Source: a virus
IMG/VR virus record: IMGVR_UViG_3300045999_010827
Span: 1-32,954 of that record
Direction: 5' to 3' (one strand)
Length of the DNA: 32,954 nucleotides
Shown: in pieces, positions 2,423 through 11,228 of the stretch
Position numbering within the stretch: the stretch's first letter is position 1
Layout: each line of letters opens with the position of its first letter
The notes under the pieces: model-generated
What the model was told of the DNA's origin: nothing
Database searches by the model: none
The model's input: only the letters and a program-made list of their open reading frames with translations
Translations under genes and position numbers: made by a program

Positions 2423-2926
2423 TTAAGCGGCCTTCTTTGTTTCCAGCGTTAGCATTGCTTTTTTCAAAGTAGGAACTCGCCGGGCAAACAACGCCGCGCG
2501 CACGGCCAGCTTTTCCAGCATTGACTCGTGCTTGCGCCTTTCGGTGTCGGTCAACACATCGATACGCGTATTTGTCCCAAGAATGACCCCTTTTGCCAAA
2601 GCGCGTGCCGCGTCGGTTTGCAAATTCTCCATCACGCGCGCATTGGCGGCGGCTGGCACAATCTCAAACCGCTCGCCTTTGGCGCCCCTGCCGCTCAAGT
2701 AAAACCCATCCTCGAGCAACTTGGTGCGGATGCGAGACATGTCCAGCCCGAAACGCATTGTGTCGCGCTCGCACTTCAGCCGCTCCTCAAAGTAAGAGGT
2801 CGGCCAGCTTGTGCCGTAGTCAACGCCCTGCGTCATCATGTCTTCGAGACACGTTTTCCATTCCGGCATCCGAACAACGTCGAACGCCATTTCAACTGCT
2901 TCGCTGTGTGTATTTTCTTCGCTCAT
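2423..2926 (-). CDS. Hypothetical early protein, possible winged helix
   Basis: A 167-aa protein directly downstream of the pentamer-repeat tract. A helical N-terminus is followed by FGLDMSRIRTKLLEDGFYLSGRGAKGERFEIVP, which looks like a recognition helix followed by a beta wing. A long charged helical tail comes last (DTERRKHESMLEKLAVRAALFARR). The layout resembles an unnamed phage family with an RGxGY-type wing, seen next to recombination genes, but I recognise it only loosely. The start ATG (2924-2926) has no Shine-Dalgarno sequence and is preceded by an A/C-rich leader (ACAAATAC). A role in reading the adjacent repeats is possible but unproven. Confidence 0.5.
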   Translation of the reverse strand: MSEENTHSEAVEMAFDVVRMPEWKTCLEDMMTQGVDYGTSWPTSYFEERLKCERDTMRFGLDMSRIRTKLLEDGFYLSGRGAKGERFEIVPAAANARVMENLQTDAARALAKGVILGTNTRIDVLTDTERRKHESMLEKLAVRAALFARRVPTLKKAMLTLETKKAA

Positions 2927-2965
2927 GTATTTGTTTTTCTATGGTTGTTTTCCTCTCAAAACTTC

Positions 2966-2981
2966 CCCGCGCCCTTGCGGG
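2966..2981 (-). terminator. Hairpin at the downstream edge of the repeat tract
   Basis: Inverted repeat CCCGC (2966-2970) with GCGGG (2977-2981) around a 6-nt loop. On the minus strand it is followed by a short run containing GTTTTG. It could be a weak intrinsic terminator or attenuator between the repeats and the next gene; the U-run is interrupted, so this is tentative. Confidence 0.3.
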
Positions 2982-2995
2982 CGGAGGTGTAGTTG

Positions 2996-3080
2996 CCCTT
3001 CCGAGCCGAGGCTTGCCCCGCCCCGCTTTGGCTTGCCTGACCGGACGTCGCCACGCTGCGCCACGCCGTGCCGCACCAAA
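2996..3080. repeat. Pentamer array A (CCnnn, 17 units)
   Basis: Read in steps of five from 2996, nearly every unit starts with C or CC: ccctt, ccgag, ccgag, gcttg, and so on through ccgca and ccaaa. On the minus (coding) strand this is nnnGG every 5 nt. A G in the fifth plus-strand position is also common. No fixed core longer than the dinucleotide is conserved, so it is a periodic signal and not an ordinary tandem repeat. It lies between two early genes and is not plausible as protein, since a 5-nt period scrambles the reading frame. Confidence 0.75.
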
Positions 3081-3124
3081 CTTCGACGCTCTCGTTGAAA
3101 GCGCCGTGTGTTTGCTGAGACTCG

Positions 3125-3195
3125 CCAGAGCATGCCTGACCTGACCCCGCCCGACCCGCGCCACGCCACGCTGCGCCAGAGCATGCCGGACCTCA
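3125..3195. repeat. Pentamer array B (CCnnn, 14 units) with an internal direct repeat
   Basis: This continues the CCnnn periodicity. From 3156 to 3195 the units are in the same 5-nt register as array A (positions ending in 1 or 6). From 3125 to about 3155 the register is shifted by one. The two ends carry near-identical copies of a 20-nt stretch, 3125-3144 and 3176-3195 (18 of 20 positions equal, containing CCAGAGCATGCC), so part of the array arose by duplication. Confidence 0.7.
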
Positions 3196-3198
3196 CTG

Positions 3199-3222
3199 CT
3201 ACCGGGGCCAAGGCCCCGGTAG
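3199..3222. other. Perfect GC-rich hairpin between pentamer arrays B and C
   Basis: CTACCGGGGC (3199-3208) is perfectly complementary to GCCCCGGTAG (3213-3222) around the 4-nt loop CAAG. It sits exactly in the gap separating array B from array C. There is no U-run on either side, so it is not a standard intrinsic terminator. It may be an extruded structure, a protein-binding palindrome or a processing site. Confidence 0.7.
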
Positions 3223-3231
3223 TGTGTGAAG

Positions 3232-3301
3232 CCGAGCCAATCCAAGCCATTGCTTGCCGCACATCGCCATGCGACGCCGCGCACTGGCATGGCCCGCCGC
3301 A
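3232..3301. repeat. Pentamer array C (CCnnn, 14 units)
   Basis: Fourteen units starting ccgag, ccaat, ccaag, ccatt and ending ccgca. The register (positions ending in 2 or 7) is offset by one from array A. The array stops about 20 nt short of the end of the upstream RAMP-like gene. Together arrays A-C hold about 46 units over roughly 300 nt, and this is the only long non-coding tract inside the early operon. Confidence 0.7.
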
Positions 3302-3322: not shown

Positions 3323-3901
3323 TCATTCCACTTCCACAAGAAACCGCCCAAACTTCGGACGCCAATCGCCAAGGCCAATTACCGCACCAGCATCAATCAT
3401 CGCCTTTTCCAGCGCGCGGGCATTGACGAGGCTTTCGTCAAACTCGAGCGTGAAGCTCAAGCTCCATCCTGTCGGAATCATCGGTCGAATGCGGATGATG
3501 CGCGACTGTTGCACTTTCACGCCCTTACGAAGGGTGAAGCGCGGATCGGCCAACATCTTCTCGCGGTCTTTTGGCCCGTCGTATTTGACGGGCACTTGCA
3601 ATTCCGTGCAGAAAACTCCGGCTTGCACGTCTTTGCCTATGCGCGATTTCTGCGCCCCAAGCTGAATGCAACGCTCGATGTTGTCGCTCGGAATGACAAC
3701 GCCTTCCGCGTCATCCCAATACAAGCCGCCCTCCCATTCAAGGCGGTCCCGTTCTTCGTAGTCGTGGTCTGTTAGCTTTTTCGACCCCTTTGACGTAATG
3801 GATTTGATCCGCCTCGTGTATTCGTTGGTCGGGTCAGCCAGCAGCCCGTTGTGCATGATAAGCGGGCGAATGCCCGTCCATGTTGTCTTTAGTGTTTTCA
3901 T
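3323..3901 (-). CDS. RAMP-like phage protein of unknown function
   Basis: A 192-aa protein. It opens with a strand-rich segment ending LIMHN (14-18). A conserved-looking centre carries GGLYWDDAEGVVIPSDNIERC (58-78) and AGVFC (94-98). It ends with VIGLGDWRPKFGRF (174-187). I recognise this as a widespread uncharacterised phage family. The C-terminal glycine- and arginine-rich loop (GxGDxRPxFGRF) resembles the G-rich loop of RAMP proteins such as Cas5/Cas6/Cas7, and nucleic-acid binding is a reasonable inference. The start ATG is preceded by GAAACACAC and not by a Shine-Dalgarno site. It lies next to the pentamer arrays. Confidence 0.6.
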   Translation of the reverse strand: MKTLKTTWTGIRPLIMHNGLLADPTNEYTRRIKSITSKGSKKLTDHDYEERDRLEWEGGLYWDDAEGVVIPSDNIERCIQLGAQKSRIGKDVQAGVFCTELQVPVKYDGPKDREKMLADPRFTLRKGVKVQQSRIIRIRPMIPTGWSLSFTLEFDESLVNARALEKAMIDAGAVIGLGDWRPKFGRFLVEVE

Positions 3902-4135: not shown

Positions 4136-4437
4136 TCCGGCACCTCCGGCAGTTCCATCCAATGCGTCACCACGCTGTCGATCTCGTCGCTCGTGTGGGC
4201 GTTGGTCCACACGTCGTTCCAGTAAACCGCAATGAAATGCGCCTCTAAGTCCGTGGCCAGCACGCAACGAGCATTGCCCGGCAGTTCCTTGTCGGCGGGT
4301 ATCCACGGGCTAATCTGCGCGCACTGCCATTTTCTCGCCGCCTCAGCCTGCTCAAGCACTTTGTGCAATGGCGGCTGCGGGCGCTTTGCCAGCGCCTCGC
4401 GGGCGGCCAAGTCGTCGGGGTGTGGTAGCGTCCTCAT
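4132..4437 (-). CDS. DUF551-domain protein
   Basis: A 101-aa protein. Its second half has the DUF551 layout: SPWIPADKELPGNARCVLAT, then a strand with AHFIAVYWNDVWT, and VTHWMELPEVPE at the end. DUF551 is common in phage early regions and has no known biochemical role. The N-terminal 35 residues are a helical extension. It is joined to both neighbours by 4-nt overlaps (4132-4135 and 4434-4437). Confidence 0.75.
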   Translation of the reverse strand: MRTLPHPDDLAAREALAKRPQPPLHKVLEQAEAARKWQCAQISPWIPADKELPGNARCVLATDLEAHFIAVYWNDVWTNAHTSDEIDSVVTHWMELPEVPE

Positions 4438-4739
4438 AGCGAATACTCCGCCACCCGTTTCCCGCTCCGCGTCTCAACGGTGCGCTCCTGGATCTGCCAT
4501 CCCTCCCGGCGCAACTCGTGGATGCGGGCGGCCAAGCGGAAGCACTGGAATCTCTCCAGCGCCTCGATGGCCGTCAGGCGGTTGCCTGCGCGTAGGTGCG
4601 CGAGGATGCGCCCTGCTTGCGTCGGCTTGCTGTGCCGCTGCTCGGCTTCGTCGGCCTCGGCCACGTTGGTGGCGCGCGCCGTCACGTAAAACGCCGGCTC
4701 GTCCCCGCCATACGGCGAAAAGAAGTCCGCTTGCACCAT
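4434..4739 (-). CDS. HTH_39-type winged-helix protein
   Basis: A 101-aa protein. The frame is open to 4826, but the ATG at 4737-4739 is preferred because the preceding gene ends at 4742. The C-terminal half (TQAGRILAHLRAGNRLTAIEALERFQCFRLAARIHELRREGWQI, then a beta wing ending RVAEYSL) fits the HTH_39 winged-helix family found in phages. Likely a DNA-binding accessory or regulatory protein. Confidence 0.7.
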   Translation of the reverse strand: MVQADFFSPYGGDEPAFYVTARATNVAEADEAEQRHSKPTQAGRILAHLRAGNRLTAIEALERFQCFRLAARIHELRREGWQIQERTVETRSGKRVAEYSL

Positions 4740-5022: not shown

Positions 5023-5304
5023 TCAAAACGGGATATCGTCGTCGGCTTGAGTGTCCTCGACCGCGGCCTTCACCGGCGCCGCGGCCTTCTTCTCCATGTG
5101 CTTCCAGTTGCCGATGATCGGCCCGCGCTCGCCCGCATCGCGCTTTTCCTTGCTGATGCCCTGCGTGATGTAGCCGTCGTCGCCGTATTGGCTCTGCCCG
5201 TCGCGGTTTTCCCAGAGGATCGCGTCGAGATAGATGCCCTTCTTGCCCTGGTAAAGGTCCGCCTTGCTGATTTTTTGAACGTCAATTTTGAGTTGGATTG
5301 CCAT
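5023..5304 (-). CDS. SSB-like single-strand-binding protein with acidic tail
   Basis: A 93-aa protein. The N-terminal 70 residues (MAIQLKIDVQKISKADLYQG, KKGIYLDAILWENRDG) look like a small OB-fold. A flexible Ala-rich linker follows and the protein ends in DDDIPF, the acidic tip by which SSB proteins recruit RecO, PriA, exonuclease I and other partners. It lies directly after the ERF annealing gene, as expected for a phage recombination set. The start ATG is preceded by AACACACATT without a Shine-Dalgarno site. Confidence 0.7.
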   Translation of the reverse strand: MAIQLKIDVQKISKADLYQGKKGIYLDAILWENRDGQSQYGDDGYITQGISKEKRDAGERGPIIGNWKHMEKKAAAPVKAAVEDTQADDDIPF

Positions 5305-5336: not shown

Positions 5337-5879
5337 TTAAAACGGGATGCGGTCATCGTCGGCCTCGACGGGTTTGGCTTTGCTCGGACGTTCCGCGGGA
5401 AACTCGTCCGTGGGCCGCGGCGTTGCTTTGGCTCGGTGCGAAAGCGGCCACTTCGCCGGCCGATCCGCGGGCCTCGAAGCCGCGTTGCCGTCGTCGTCCT
5501 CCGGCGCGAGGCCGAGGGCCGTCTGCAAGTGGTAGCGGCGCGCGTAAGTGATCGCGCTGCCGTAGCCTTGTGCGTCGTTCTTCGTGCACGGCACAAAGAG
5601 CCGTCCGAAAGACATCTCCTCGCCGCTCTCGTGCACCAGCACGGTTTCCACTTCGACGCCCTGAGCGTCGGTCGCGTGCGTGCGCTGCGTCAGCGCGATC
5701 CCGTTGTCGTTGAGCGCCTCGACCACTGCCTCGACGCAGGCCGACAAGTCGGCGTAGCGGCTCTTGAAGTGCGGGTTCTGGCTACTCTTGAGCGCCGGCC
5801 CGAAAGCCTTCTGGGCCTTGACCAAGGCGGCGCTGATCTGCTTGCGTGTGCTTGACACGCTTTCTGGGTTTGTCTCCAT
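5337..5879 (-). CDS. erf: ERF-family single-strand annealing protein
   Basis: A 180-aa protein with the ERF superfamily pattern: ISAALVKAQKAFGPALKSSQ, HFKSRYADLSACVEAVV, a strand region around VLVHESGEEMSF and YGSAITYARRYHLQTALGL (about 105-123). ERF proteins anneal single-stranded DNA during phage recombination and genome circularisation. The C-terminus is a disordered Pro/Ala/Lys linker ending ADDDRIPF, an SSB-type acidic tip like that of the neighbouring SSB-like protein. The start has an ACACACCAA leader and no clear Shine-Dalgarno site. Confidence 0.88.
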   Translation of the reverse strand: METNPESVSSTRKQISAALVKAQKAFGPALKSSQNPHFKSRYADLSACVEAVVEALNDNGIALTQRTHATDAQGVEVETVLVHESGEEMSFGRLFVPCTKNDAQGYGSAITYARRYHLQTALGLAPEDDDGNAASRPADRPAKWPLSHRAKATPRPTDEFPAERPSKAKPVEADDDRIPF

Positions 5880-5934: not shown

Positions 5935-6498
5935 TTAAGCGGGCGGTCCTCCGTTGGTGGTTGACCGTCCGAAAATCTGATCCCAGCCGTAAACCGCCAC
6001 GGCCAGCGCCGCCCACTCGTGCGACTTGATGCCGTAGGTCGGGCCTTGGTTCTTCTTCGTCCCCTGCGGCCCGAGTCGGTCAAGCAACGCCTGCCGCACG
6101 TTGCCGTCCTTGGCCCGCGGCGAATTGCACAGGTGCAGTTTGATGTCCTTACGAAAAACCAACTCGACCTCGCCACCGGAGCTTTTCGCCACCTGCACGC
6201 ACCGGCCGATAAACACGCACGTTTGGAAAACGCTCGCCCCGACCGCCATGCCGTAGGACGCGATCATCTCGCAAAAAATGTGCTGCCGCGACCACAGCGG
6301 ATGCCCGAGCAGGTGCTCGTTGTCCCAGATCCCGTGCTGCACGATCTCGCGGCCGTCGAACATCGCAAACGCCGACTGGTCCGTGCCCGGATCGACGCCC
6401 ACCACCACGCGGTCAACGCTCTCGGCGCAGTCGCCGCAGTCGGTCATGTCGTGGAAAATGGACTGGCCGCATTTGCAGTAGTGGATTTCGCGGCTCAT
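5935..6498 (-). CDS. RuvC-like Holliday junction resolvase with zinc ribbon
   Basis: A 187-aa protein. An N-terminal zinc-ribbon-like module (C8, C10, C21, C24) is followed by an RNase H-fold core: VVVGVDPGTDQSAFAMFDG with catalytic-type D36, an acidic E77 in FCEMIA, and a final helix KSHEWAALAVAVYGWD where H160-E161 occupy the usual HxxD acidic site. KDIKLHLCNSPRAKDGNVRQALLDRLG is typical of phage RuvC-like nucleases. It should cut branched DNA before packaging. The zinc ribbon at the start is an added feature. Confidence 0.8.
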   Translation of the reverse strand: MSREIHYCKCGQSIFHDMTDCGDCAESVDRVVVGVDPGTDQSAFAMFDGREIVQHGIWDNEHLLGHPLWSRQHIFCEMIASYGMAVGASVFQTCVFIGRCVQVAKSSGGEVELVFRKDIKLHLCNSPRAKDGNVRQALLDRLGPQGTKKNQGPTYGIKSHEWAALAVAVYGWDQIFGRSTTNGGPPA

Positions 6499-9121: not shown

Positions 9122-10186
9122 ATGAGAAGCGAGACGGTAAAAGTGGGCAACACTTCCACCCGCCTCTGGCTCGGCGCCGACGGCCGTTGGAAATGGCATT
9201 GCTACATCGCCGGGCGGCGCGTCCTCAAATCCTCGAACGACCTCCACAAAGCCCGCGCCAAGGCCAAGGCCCAACTCACCGGCCTGCGAGACGGCAAAGC
9301 GGCTCTCGCCACCCTGTCGGCCTCCGACCTGTCCGAGTTTGTCGCATGGCGCGTCGCCCGCATCGAGTCGCCGGCCGTCGCCGAGGCCGTGGTGAAATAC
9401 CTGGCGCACTTGGCCAGCCGCAAAGTGCAGGAGACGCGCATCATCCAGAGCGACCTTGAGAAATTCGCCGCCGCGCACCGCGGGCGCCTGTCCGAAGTGA
9501 CCGGCGAGCAGGTCGGCGCCTACCTCGAGGGACTCGCCGTCGGCCCGCGGAGATACAACAATGTCCGCTCCTGCCTCGTCAGTTTCTTCCGCTGGGCCCG
9601 GACCACCGGCCTCGTGCCCGACGGGCTCACGGCGCCCGAGCGCACGCATACGAAGGTCTTGTCCGCATCGGCCGTCACCATCTACACGCCGCAGCAATTC
9701 CGCGCCCTGCTGGCCGTAGCGCCGCCGGAATGGCGCCTTGGCATTGCCATCGGCGGGCTGGCAGGCCTCCGCACCGAAGAGATCGCCGGCCTGCGGTGGG
9801 AGGACATCAAGCTCGGCCGCAAACTCATCGAGGTCCGCGCTGAGATTTGCAAGACCCGCAAGCGGCGGTTGGTCCCCATCGTGCCCGCCCTGGCCAAAGT
9901 CATCCGCGCCAGCGAGCCGGCCGACTACGACATGGTCGTGCCGCGGGAGCGCATCGACAACGCCGTGAAGCGCATCCGCAAAGCCGGTGGGCTATGGATC
10001 AAGAACGGCCTCCGGCACAGCTTCGGCAGCTACCGCACCACCGCGGTCAAAAGCGTCGGCCAAGTCGCCCTGGAGATGGGCAACAGCGAGGCTATGGTCA
10101 GGAAGCACTATCTCGAAATTGTGGACAGCAAGGCCGCCCGGGACTGGTTCGATAGTGGTTCGATTTCGCTAAAAAAAGCAGATTAA
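9122..10186 (+). CDS. int: Tyrosine-family site-specific integrase
   Basis: A 354-aa protein. Residues ~1-60 form an arm-binding-like domain, ~65-170 a SAM-like core-binding domain, and ~185-345 the catalytic domain. Catalytic positions: R217 in AGLRTEEIAGLRWED, a Lys in KTRKRR (~244-248), NGLRHSFGSY (N295, R298), MGNSEAMVRKHY with N321 and nucleophile Y330. Asn replaces both usual His residues (HxxR and GH). This NGLRHS form occurs in an integrase group that I associate with Verrucomicrobiota. It inserts and excises the phage genome at an att site. Downstream repeats may be its arm sites. Confidence 0.93.
   Translation: MRSETVKVGNTSTRLWLGADGRWKWHCYIAGRRVLKSSNDLHKARAKAKAQLTGLRDGKAALATLSASDLSEFVAWRVARIESPAVAEAVVKYLAHLASRKVQETRIIQSDLEKFAAAHRGRLSEVTGEQVGAYLEGLAVGPRRYNNVRSCLVSFFRWARTTGLVPDGLTAPERTHTKVLSASAVTIYTPQQFRALLAVAPPEWRLGIAIGGLAGLRTEEIAGLRWEDIKLGRKLIEVRAEICKTRKRRLVPIVPALAKVIRASEPADYDMVVPRERIDNAVKRIRKAGGLWIKNGLRHSFGSYRTTAVKSVGQVALEMGNSEAMVRKHYLEIVDSKAARDWFDSGSISLKKAD
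10145..10166 (+). repeat. Att-region direct repeat, copy 1 (inside int 3' end)
   Basis: A 22-nt stretch that recurs exactly at 10299-10320. Internally it contains GGTTCGAT twice, separated by AGT. This copy overlaps the last codons of integrase. It is followed by gattaacaga (10181-10190). Direct repeats flanking a short gap next to int are typical of arm-type integrase sites around attP. Confidence 0.6.
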
Positions 10187-10412: not shown

Positions 10413-11228
10413 GTGGCAAAGAAAACCTCTCGCCCTCGTCTCCTGGTCGTCGTCTCCGACCTGCATTGCGGCTCATCGGTCGGCCTCATGCCCCCAGACT
10501 CCGAGATCATCGGCGGCAACACGATCTGCTTCGGCTCCAATCATCACCAACGCTGGCTCTGGGACTGCTGGCAGGACGCCCTCGCCCAGGTGGCCAAGCT
10601 CGCGGGCAATGATCCCCTTGCCTTGCTGGTGAATGGCGATGCCACCGAAGGCATCCACCACCGCAGCCCGGAGGTCGTGGCCTCACTCATCGAGCATCAT
10701 TGCCAGATGGCGGCGACGGCGCTCAAGCCCTGGGCGGATCGGGCGGTAAAGACCTTCGTCACCCGCGGGACCGAGTGCCATACGCATGACGTGGAGAGCT
10801 ACCTGGCCCGCCTGCTCGGCGCCGAGGATGGCAAGGCCCGCGACAAGTGGCTGCTGGAGATTGCAGGGTGCCGCATCGACGCGGCCCACCATATCGGCGC
10901 CACGTCCCGCACTTACCTCGAGGCATCGCTGCTCTCGATCGTGCTTGGCAATGCCCGCCTTAACGCCGTCCGCGCCGGCCATCCGGCGGCCCAAGTATTC
11001 CTGCGGGCGCACCGGCACTGTGGCGGCGTTTACTCGGACGGCTCGGCGCTGATGGCCGTGACGGGCGGCTGGCAGTTCCTCACGCGGCACGGGCACAAAG
11101 TCGTCGGCGATGCGATCCCGCGGCCGTCGGTGCTGGTCTTGGATTGGCGCGACAAACCGGATGGGTCCCTGCCTACGCCGCACCACATCTTTTTCAACCC
11201 GCCCGCCCCTGAGGTCACCAAGCTATGA
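10413..11228 (+). CDS. Calcineurin-like metallophosphatase of phage type
   Basis: A 271-aa protein starting at GTG 10413, with TTGACA 22 nt upstream. It contains metallophosphatase motifs in order: VVSDLHCGS (D16, H18), LVNGDATEG (D76), VTRGTECHTHD in place of GNHD/E (119-125), DAAHHIG (H159/H160) and RAHRHCGG (H200, H202). The family uses two metal ions to hydrolyse phosphomonoesters or phosphodiesters. In phages the substrate may be DNA ends or a nucleotide signal; it is not known here. It overlaps the next gene by 4 nt. Confidence 0.8.
   Translation: MAKKTSRPRLLVVVSDLHCGSSVGLMPPDSEIIGGNTICFGSNHHQRWLWDCWQDALAQVAKLAGNDPLALLVNGDATEGIHHRSPEVVASLIEHHCQMAATALKPWADRAVKTFVTRGTECHTHDVESYLARLLGAEDGKARDKWLLEIAGCRIDAAHHIGATSRTYLEASLLSIVLGNARLNAVRAGHPAAQVFLRAHRHCGGVYSDGSALMAVTGGWQFLTRHGHKVVGDAIPRPSVLVLDWRDKPDGSLPTPHHIFFNPPAPEVTKL

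Follow-up and report, generated by a model that had tools for sequence, protein, structure and literature searches.

The non-coding tract at positions 2996-3301 of the IMG/VR virus record IMGVR_UViG_3300045999_010827 (analysed over its whole 32,954 nucleotides, here called the window) very probably codes for three VIPR guide RNAs, termed vrRNAs. The name VIPR stands for Viral Interference Programmable Repeat; the system was described in a preprint of April-June 2026 as a combination of a RAMP protein (Vipr; small, with a single RRM-like core, a glycine-rich loop and a thumb), an accessory vap and vrRNAs, which consist of 9-16 YNNGG repeats followed by an invariant structured tail (PMC13142463). 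The vrRNA-Vipr complex recognises double-stranded DNA through pairing of the NN letters, between which one target base, in most cases a codon's wobble position, is passed over, and it represses competing phages; expression, the RNA-protein complex, the skip rule and repression have been demonstrated for SUSP1 and P. fulva (PMC13142463). Seven types have been distinguished, the SUSP1 system, with its DNA-binding accessory vap1, being type II, and VIPR, distantly related to CRISPR, has been proposed to predate it (PMC13142463). A preliminary description of the tract, made from the sequence, knew of no named element like it, a statement now overtaken by that preprint. VIPR is known from this one preprint, on which our assignment leans, and the window is a new example with a different tail design. 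The present analysis shows the array pattern, the RNA structure of the tails, the predicted fold of the adjacent protein, the accessory gene paired with it and the occurrence of these elements together across phages.

Pentamer arrays and their structured tails

On the minus (coding) strand of 2996-3301, the autocorrelation of GG at lag 5 was 21 against 7.25 expected (z 5.6), a value reached in 0/2000 dinucleotide shuffles, with harmonics at lag 10 (z 5.4) and lag 15 (z 3.4) and values at or below expectation at lags 6-9. The 5-nt period of the preliminary description was thus borne out, the coordinates of its three blocks match the segments of our array detector, and its count of about 46 pentamers compares with the 47 units parsed here (14 + 16 + 17 in three arrays). 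It had also stated that the period and not a sequence is conserved; the period and the variable other positions stood, but the repeat unit is GGYNN, in which NN is free and GGY itself is kept, as 564 arrays from related loci also indicate. Exact GGY occurs in 29/47 units of the window (62%). The one-nucleotide offsets of register between blocks were seen again, and they are accounted for by the borders between three separate RNAs together with one 1-nt shift in the middle array, at about 3157.

Scoring of such units over the whole window returned four segments on the minus strand, the best at 32.7, and a single weak one on the plus strand (12.4), so that GGYNN-type arrays are, save for the latter, confined to the tract. 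The maxima of the controls were 17.9 in 60 whole-window shuffles and 18.8 in 2000 tract shuffles. The array at 2995-3077 is the only one whose unit score by itself clearly beats chance, and the other two do not exceed the shuffle maxima; the case for arrays A and B is made by the autocorrelation of the tract as a whole, by their tails and by the relatives. Each array is followed by a structured stem-loop 3' tail, and as a tail follows every block, the element extends to about 2956, past the left border first given to it. The parts are as follows.

3231..3298, minus strand: repeat part of vrRNA A, 14 units with 7 exact GGY, the most degenerate array (unit parse)
3191..3230, minus strand: 3' tail of vrRNA A, UUCAC/GUGAG outer stem, ACA/CA internal loop and 10-bp inner hairpin (fold and covariation)
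3114..3192, minus strand: repeat part of vrRNA B, 16 units (7 + 9) with an extra G at about 3157 (parse partly by hand)
3077..3113, minus strand: 3' tail of vrRNA B, CAAAC/GUUUG outer stem, ACA/AA internal loop and inner hairpin (fold and covariation)
2995..3077, minus strand: repeat part of vrRNA C, 17 units with 11 exact GGY, top score 32.7
2956..2994, minus strand: 3' tail of vrRNA C, weaker outer stem, UACA/AA loop and inner hairpin with a GCAA loop (alignment to the clade consensus)

Tail A folds at -30.8 kcal/mol (z -5.9 against shuffles) and tail B at z -4.2, the fold of tail C being weaker (z -1.7). An outer stem, an ACA/NA internal loop and an inner hairpin are common to 19 tails from the window and its nearest relatives, in which 95.4% of the cells expected to pair do so, compared with 72.1% in shuffles, and 63 cells are changed on both sides, compared with 21.0. 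When the pairing was slid by 1-3 columns, the signal was lost, with at most 21 double-changed cells. The array tails are RNA-level structure kept via compensatory base changes, which supports the RNA-level signal that had been listed among the early options for the tract. No Rfam family matched the tract, and in the loci of seven relatives no match rose above chance.

The preliminary description had set the tract apart from iterons, CRISPRs and microsatellites, and this distinction is supported. A class 1 CRISPR-Cas locus was rejected, as the tract holds no repeat-spacer array and the remaining operon genes serve phage replication and recombination; a microsatellite was ruled out because the variation falls on the wrong letters.

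Vipr, its accessory gene and their relatives

The tract lies in a minus-strand operon that runs from a resolvase homologue and ERF to vipr, the tract, a vap-like gene and a replication initiation homologue. The genes considered here are listed in this order, with the integrase last.

5935-6498, minus strand: Holliday-junction resolvase homologue, same operon
5337-5879, minus strand: ERF, same operon, upstream of the tract
5023-5304, minus strand: small protein gene, same operon, upstream of the tract
3323..3901, minus strand: vipr gene, 192 aa, phrog_4652 (E 9.5e-52), RAMP family by predicted fold
2423..2926, minus strand: vap-like accessory gene, 167 aa, predicted winged-helix-like fold with long helices
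1549-2421, minus strand: replication initiation homologue, same operon, downstream of the tract
9122-10186: integrase, phrog_1 (E 2.1e-28)

The 192-aa product is a RAMP by predicted fold. Its AlphaFold2 model (pLDDT 89) has as top Foldseek matches Csm3/Cas7 proteins of type III CRISPR (E 4.9e-05), with which it aligns over 151 residues (VIA-align, Z 10.6, rmsd 3.0), and a C-terminal Gly-rich GLGDWRPKFGRF region is conserved across the Vipr family. The protein is 34% identical to the Vipr of SUSP1 (ALH47069) over 192 residues, and its predicted role is to bind the guide RNA as a coat; the adjacent RAMP-like protein, named early on as a possible binder of the tract, is the right partner by prediction. 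The 167-aa product is a probable DNA-binding protein, judging from its model (pLDDT 83), whose best Foldseek matches are MarR-type winged helices, all weak (E 0.04 and above). A homologue of its gene follows vipr, and any intervening arrays, in most IMG/VR loci, and its relation to the SUSP1 accessory family, phrog_5926, is remote, established via one relative (E 2.6e-4) and a weak profile match. Pfam has no family for the vipr or the vap-like product, and PADLOC called no system in the window. The integrase suggests that the phage is probably temperate. Downstream of it, a 271-aa protein (10413-11228, plus strand) has no PHROG or PADLOC match and by eye looks like a metallophosphoesterase, with SDLHCG and NGD motifs.

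In sum, Vipr homology, a predicted RAMP fold with a Gly-rich region and an adjacent vap-like gene are all present, as are the repeats (14, 16 and 17 GGYNN units) and a conserved tail structure (19 tails). As a positive control, the same array detector was applied to SUSP1, in which the vipr-vap pair lies at KT454805.2 28031-29061, and it found one array upstream and three downstream of the pair, which are the four vrRNAs sequenced in PMC13142463. The window system is probably type II-like, to go by phrog_4652, which is common to its Vipr and the SUSP1 group, the link of vap to SUSP1 being weak.

Of the 129 phage records matched by the 192-aa protein, most are Felix-like phages of enterobacteria and some are phages of Mycobacterium, Gordonia and Pseudomonas; 34 relatives of Vipr were found in IMG/VR. 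When these related phages were searched for the same period, as had been suggested at the outset, GGYNN arrays, with a stem-loop after them, were found directly before or after vipr in 33/34 IMG/VR loci, the remaining one (L030) having degenerate traces only, and in these 33 loci GGY always lies on the strand of the vipr gene. Among the 564 arrays, position 1 is G in 94.5%, position 2 is G in 93.7% and position 3 is C or T in 95%, whereas positions 4-5 are mixed in composition. The Y letter is mostly C in G+C-rich phages and mostly T in the enterobacterial phages wV8 and SUSP1. In mycobacteriophage LittleE, the vipr-vap pair and its arrays make up an oppositely oriented cassette amid tail genes, which indicates that the tract is independent of recombination genes, and in Escherichia phage wV8 the arrays lie between DNA ligase and hypothetical genes. 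Guides are swapped between phages as whole modules; for example, the second and third guides after vipr are common to L013 and L027, while the first differs.

Several further observations were made in the relatives. Clusters of at least eight arrays each occur on both sides of the accessory gene in L004 (4577-6182) and L009 (4573-5857), with near-identical tails (AACAACACTCCCC...GGGGAGAAGATTT) that represent a second tail subtype. In wV8, the annotated 58-nt direct repeats DR_4 (2759-2816 and 4152-4209) occupy the same positions as the ends and tails of two GGYNN arrays, which explains an annotated and previously unaccounted-for repeat of a Felix-like phage. The tails between the arrays of LittleE (4140-4520) resemble tRNA acceptor/T-arm minihelices, with GTTCGATTC and GGTTCGAGTCC inside the closing stem, and might recruit tRNA-processing enzymes; ARAGORN and Rfam made no call on them.

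Guide code, proposed mechanism and alternatives

In 431 arrays, the composition of NN correlated with that of codon positions 1-2 (r 0.61) and not with positions 2-3 (r 0.03) or 3-1 (r -0.29), a likeness expected if the wobble base is skipped, of which purine bias could mimic a part. The guides within loci also sort into sense-like and antisense-like ones beyond shuffles, 7/500 of which reach the observed spread. Both results bear on the skip rule indirectly. The decoded readings of window guides A, B and C contain no TA or TG dinucleotide (B parsed by hand), and under a one-base skip the target of guide C reads GCNACNGTNGCNGTNGANCCNCANAANAANGGNGGNAANTCNTCNAG.

Exact scans of viral_contigs with the 10-NN skip pattern gave 0 matches for guides A, B and C and 0 for two guides of the L012 clade, and with as many as 3 mismatches allowed, guide C had 0 matches in 338 genomes from the phylum to which an Opitutia bacterium belongs. 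A mismatch-tolerant comparison of 351 arrays with 2.8 Mb of the relatives' loci, on both strands, gave three weak matches at skip 1 and one to three at control skips, which amounts to no signal. Decoded peptides had no match in PHROGs, where a positive control likewise failed to match, so that this negative is uninformative. As the scans were exact or limited to 338 genomes, and the rivals may be unsequenced, the missing targets count only weakly against targeting.

The last array after vipr in L012, L018, L021 and L024 has homologous guides that differ by single-NN changes, with conservative decoded changes (YDTGDRDTPVTSVRL, YITGDRDTPLSSVRL), as though they followed variation in a single target protein; an exact search with their common core found no target. 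In seven Rhizobiales genomes (L164-L170), the antisense skip reading of the single guide directly after vipr gives variants of S/F-T-G-V/T/I-I/L-S-G-T-P-T, including a TCN/AGN serine switch. This motif resembles the He_PIG Ig-like domain, and an example peptide scores against PF05345; as no site for it was found in the genomes themselves or in 81 genomes of one genus, the reading is no more than a hint.

On the model of the published systems, the operon transcript would carry, after the vipr coding region, three (GGYNN)n modules, each with a structured tail, and these would be set free as RNAs some 108-122 nt long. On these RNAs, protomers of Vipr may line up, probably one per pentamer, with GGY held and NN left free to pair with double-stranded DNA as NNxNNxNN, where the one skipped target base would mostly be the codon wobble base. 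Once bound, the complex would keep a rival phage, prophage or satellite from being transcribed, and the adjacent winged-helix-like vap protein may assist repression. For the window phage, we infer processing, coating, DNA recognition, repression and the role in phage rivalry from PMC13142463.

A serious, if unlikely, possibility is that the VIPR guide cluster of the tract worked in the past and is now in decay, with vipr and vap intact and the guides out of use. The fidelity of GGY, 62% in the window, is 0.73-1.0 in the close relatives L001-L009, array B has its register shift, tail C folds weakly, and the scans run found no target for the window guides. The low share of exact GGY and the shift in array B suggest that one or more guides may be decaying or that the scaffold is tolerant. 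On the other hand, the tail architecture of the clade is retained in all three tails, vipr and the vap-like gene are both intact open frames, and the decoded readings lack TA and TG; moreover, the SUSP1 arrays, which are shown to be expressed, likewise carry several non-GGY units, AGT, TGT and GTT among them, and the wV8 arrays are partly degenerate too.

The remaining explanations depart from a guide function altogether. The period of 5 and the invariant triplet recall TRAP sites, and the arrays lie inside the operon between vipr and vap, so the tract might be an RNA decoy or autoregulatory leader that titrates Vipr or a host RNA-binding protein and targets no DNA. We consider this very improbable, as the number of modules varies, whole modules are exchanged between near-identical phages, NN obeys codon-position statistics, and programmable DNA binding has been demonstrated for the SUSP1 homologue (PMC13142463). 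The preliminary description had thought of a DNA loading, origin or recombination site, which would be read every 5 nt by the ERF annealing protein or the SSB-like protein; ERF and the small protein are encoded upstream in the operon and a replication initiation homologue downstream. However, the arrays go with the RAMP gene and not with ERF, as LittleE and wV8 show, tail base pairs are kept by compensatory changes as in an RNA, and GGY is always on the vipr coding strand, which leaves such a site extremely improbable. A functionless low-complexity or slippage-derived repeat would suit a G+C-rich tract of imperfect units within a G+C-rich genome; yet NN, which slippage would copy, varies while GGY stays, the tails covary, and unrelated phages, among them those of Escherichia, Mycobacterium and Gordonia as well as environmental ones, have the pattern next to the same gene, which refutes such an origin and leaves its likelihood negligible.

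Relation to known systems and significance

Taken as a VIPR system, the window shares with SUSP1 a homologous Vipr, a downstream accessory gene, GGYNN arrays, a structured 3' tail and a phage-borne location. All three of its arrays lie between vipr and vap, whereas SUSP1 has one before and three after the pair, and its Y letter is mostly C, that of SUSP1 mostly T. In the window tail, two helices with an ACA/NA internal loop form a hairpin in which no pseudoknot was seen, while a pseudoknot has been reported for SUSP1 (PMC13142463); in addition, the accessory proteins are only remotely similar and the window has more non-GGY units. It is rather unlikely, in our judgement, that the clade constitutes a distinct VIPR variant, marked by pseudoknot-free two-helix ACA/NA tails, exchangeable modules, a divergent accessory and loose GGY, with either a relaxed Vipr code or a skip rule that departs in detail from the published one.

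The Vipr model shares its fold with Csm3/Cas7 along its length (Z 10.6), together with the Gly-rich loop, and in both cases a protein filament would read a guide RNA at a fixed period, although the window operon has no CRISPR repeats or other cas genes. Type III CRISPR uses a period of 6 with fully variable spacers, whereas VIPR has a period of 5 with an invariant GGY. In the trp leader of Bacillus, the multimeric protein TRAP binds NAG triplets of RNA about every 5 nt, a spacing similar to that of the tract, but the protein, the triplet and the role are different, and the spacers of TRAP sites are not known to carry targeting information. TIGR-Tas likewise comprises phage-associated short-guide arrays other than CRISPR, with a different effector family and array design.

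The arrays of the window were found independently, from raw sequence and in a different lineage, and with their tail covariation and codon-like NN they back the reported logic of VIPR. More than 500 further GGYNN arrays are now at hand on which this logic can be tested. The tails of the window provide a second architecture to set beside the published pseudoknot of SUSP1, and its arrays are a case for the tolerance of non-GGY units.
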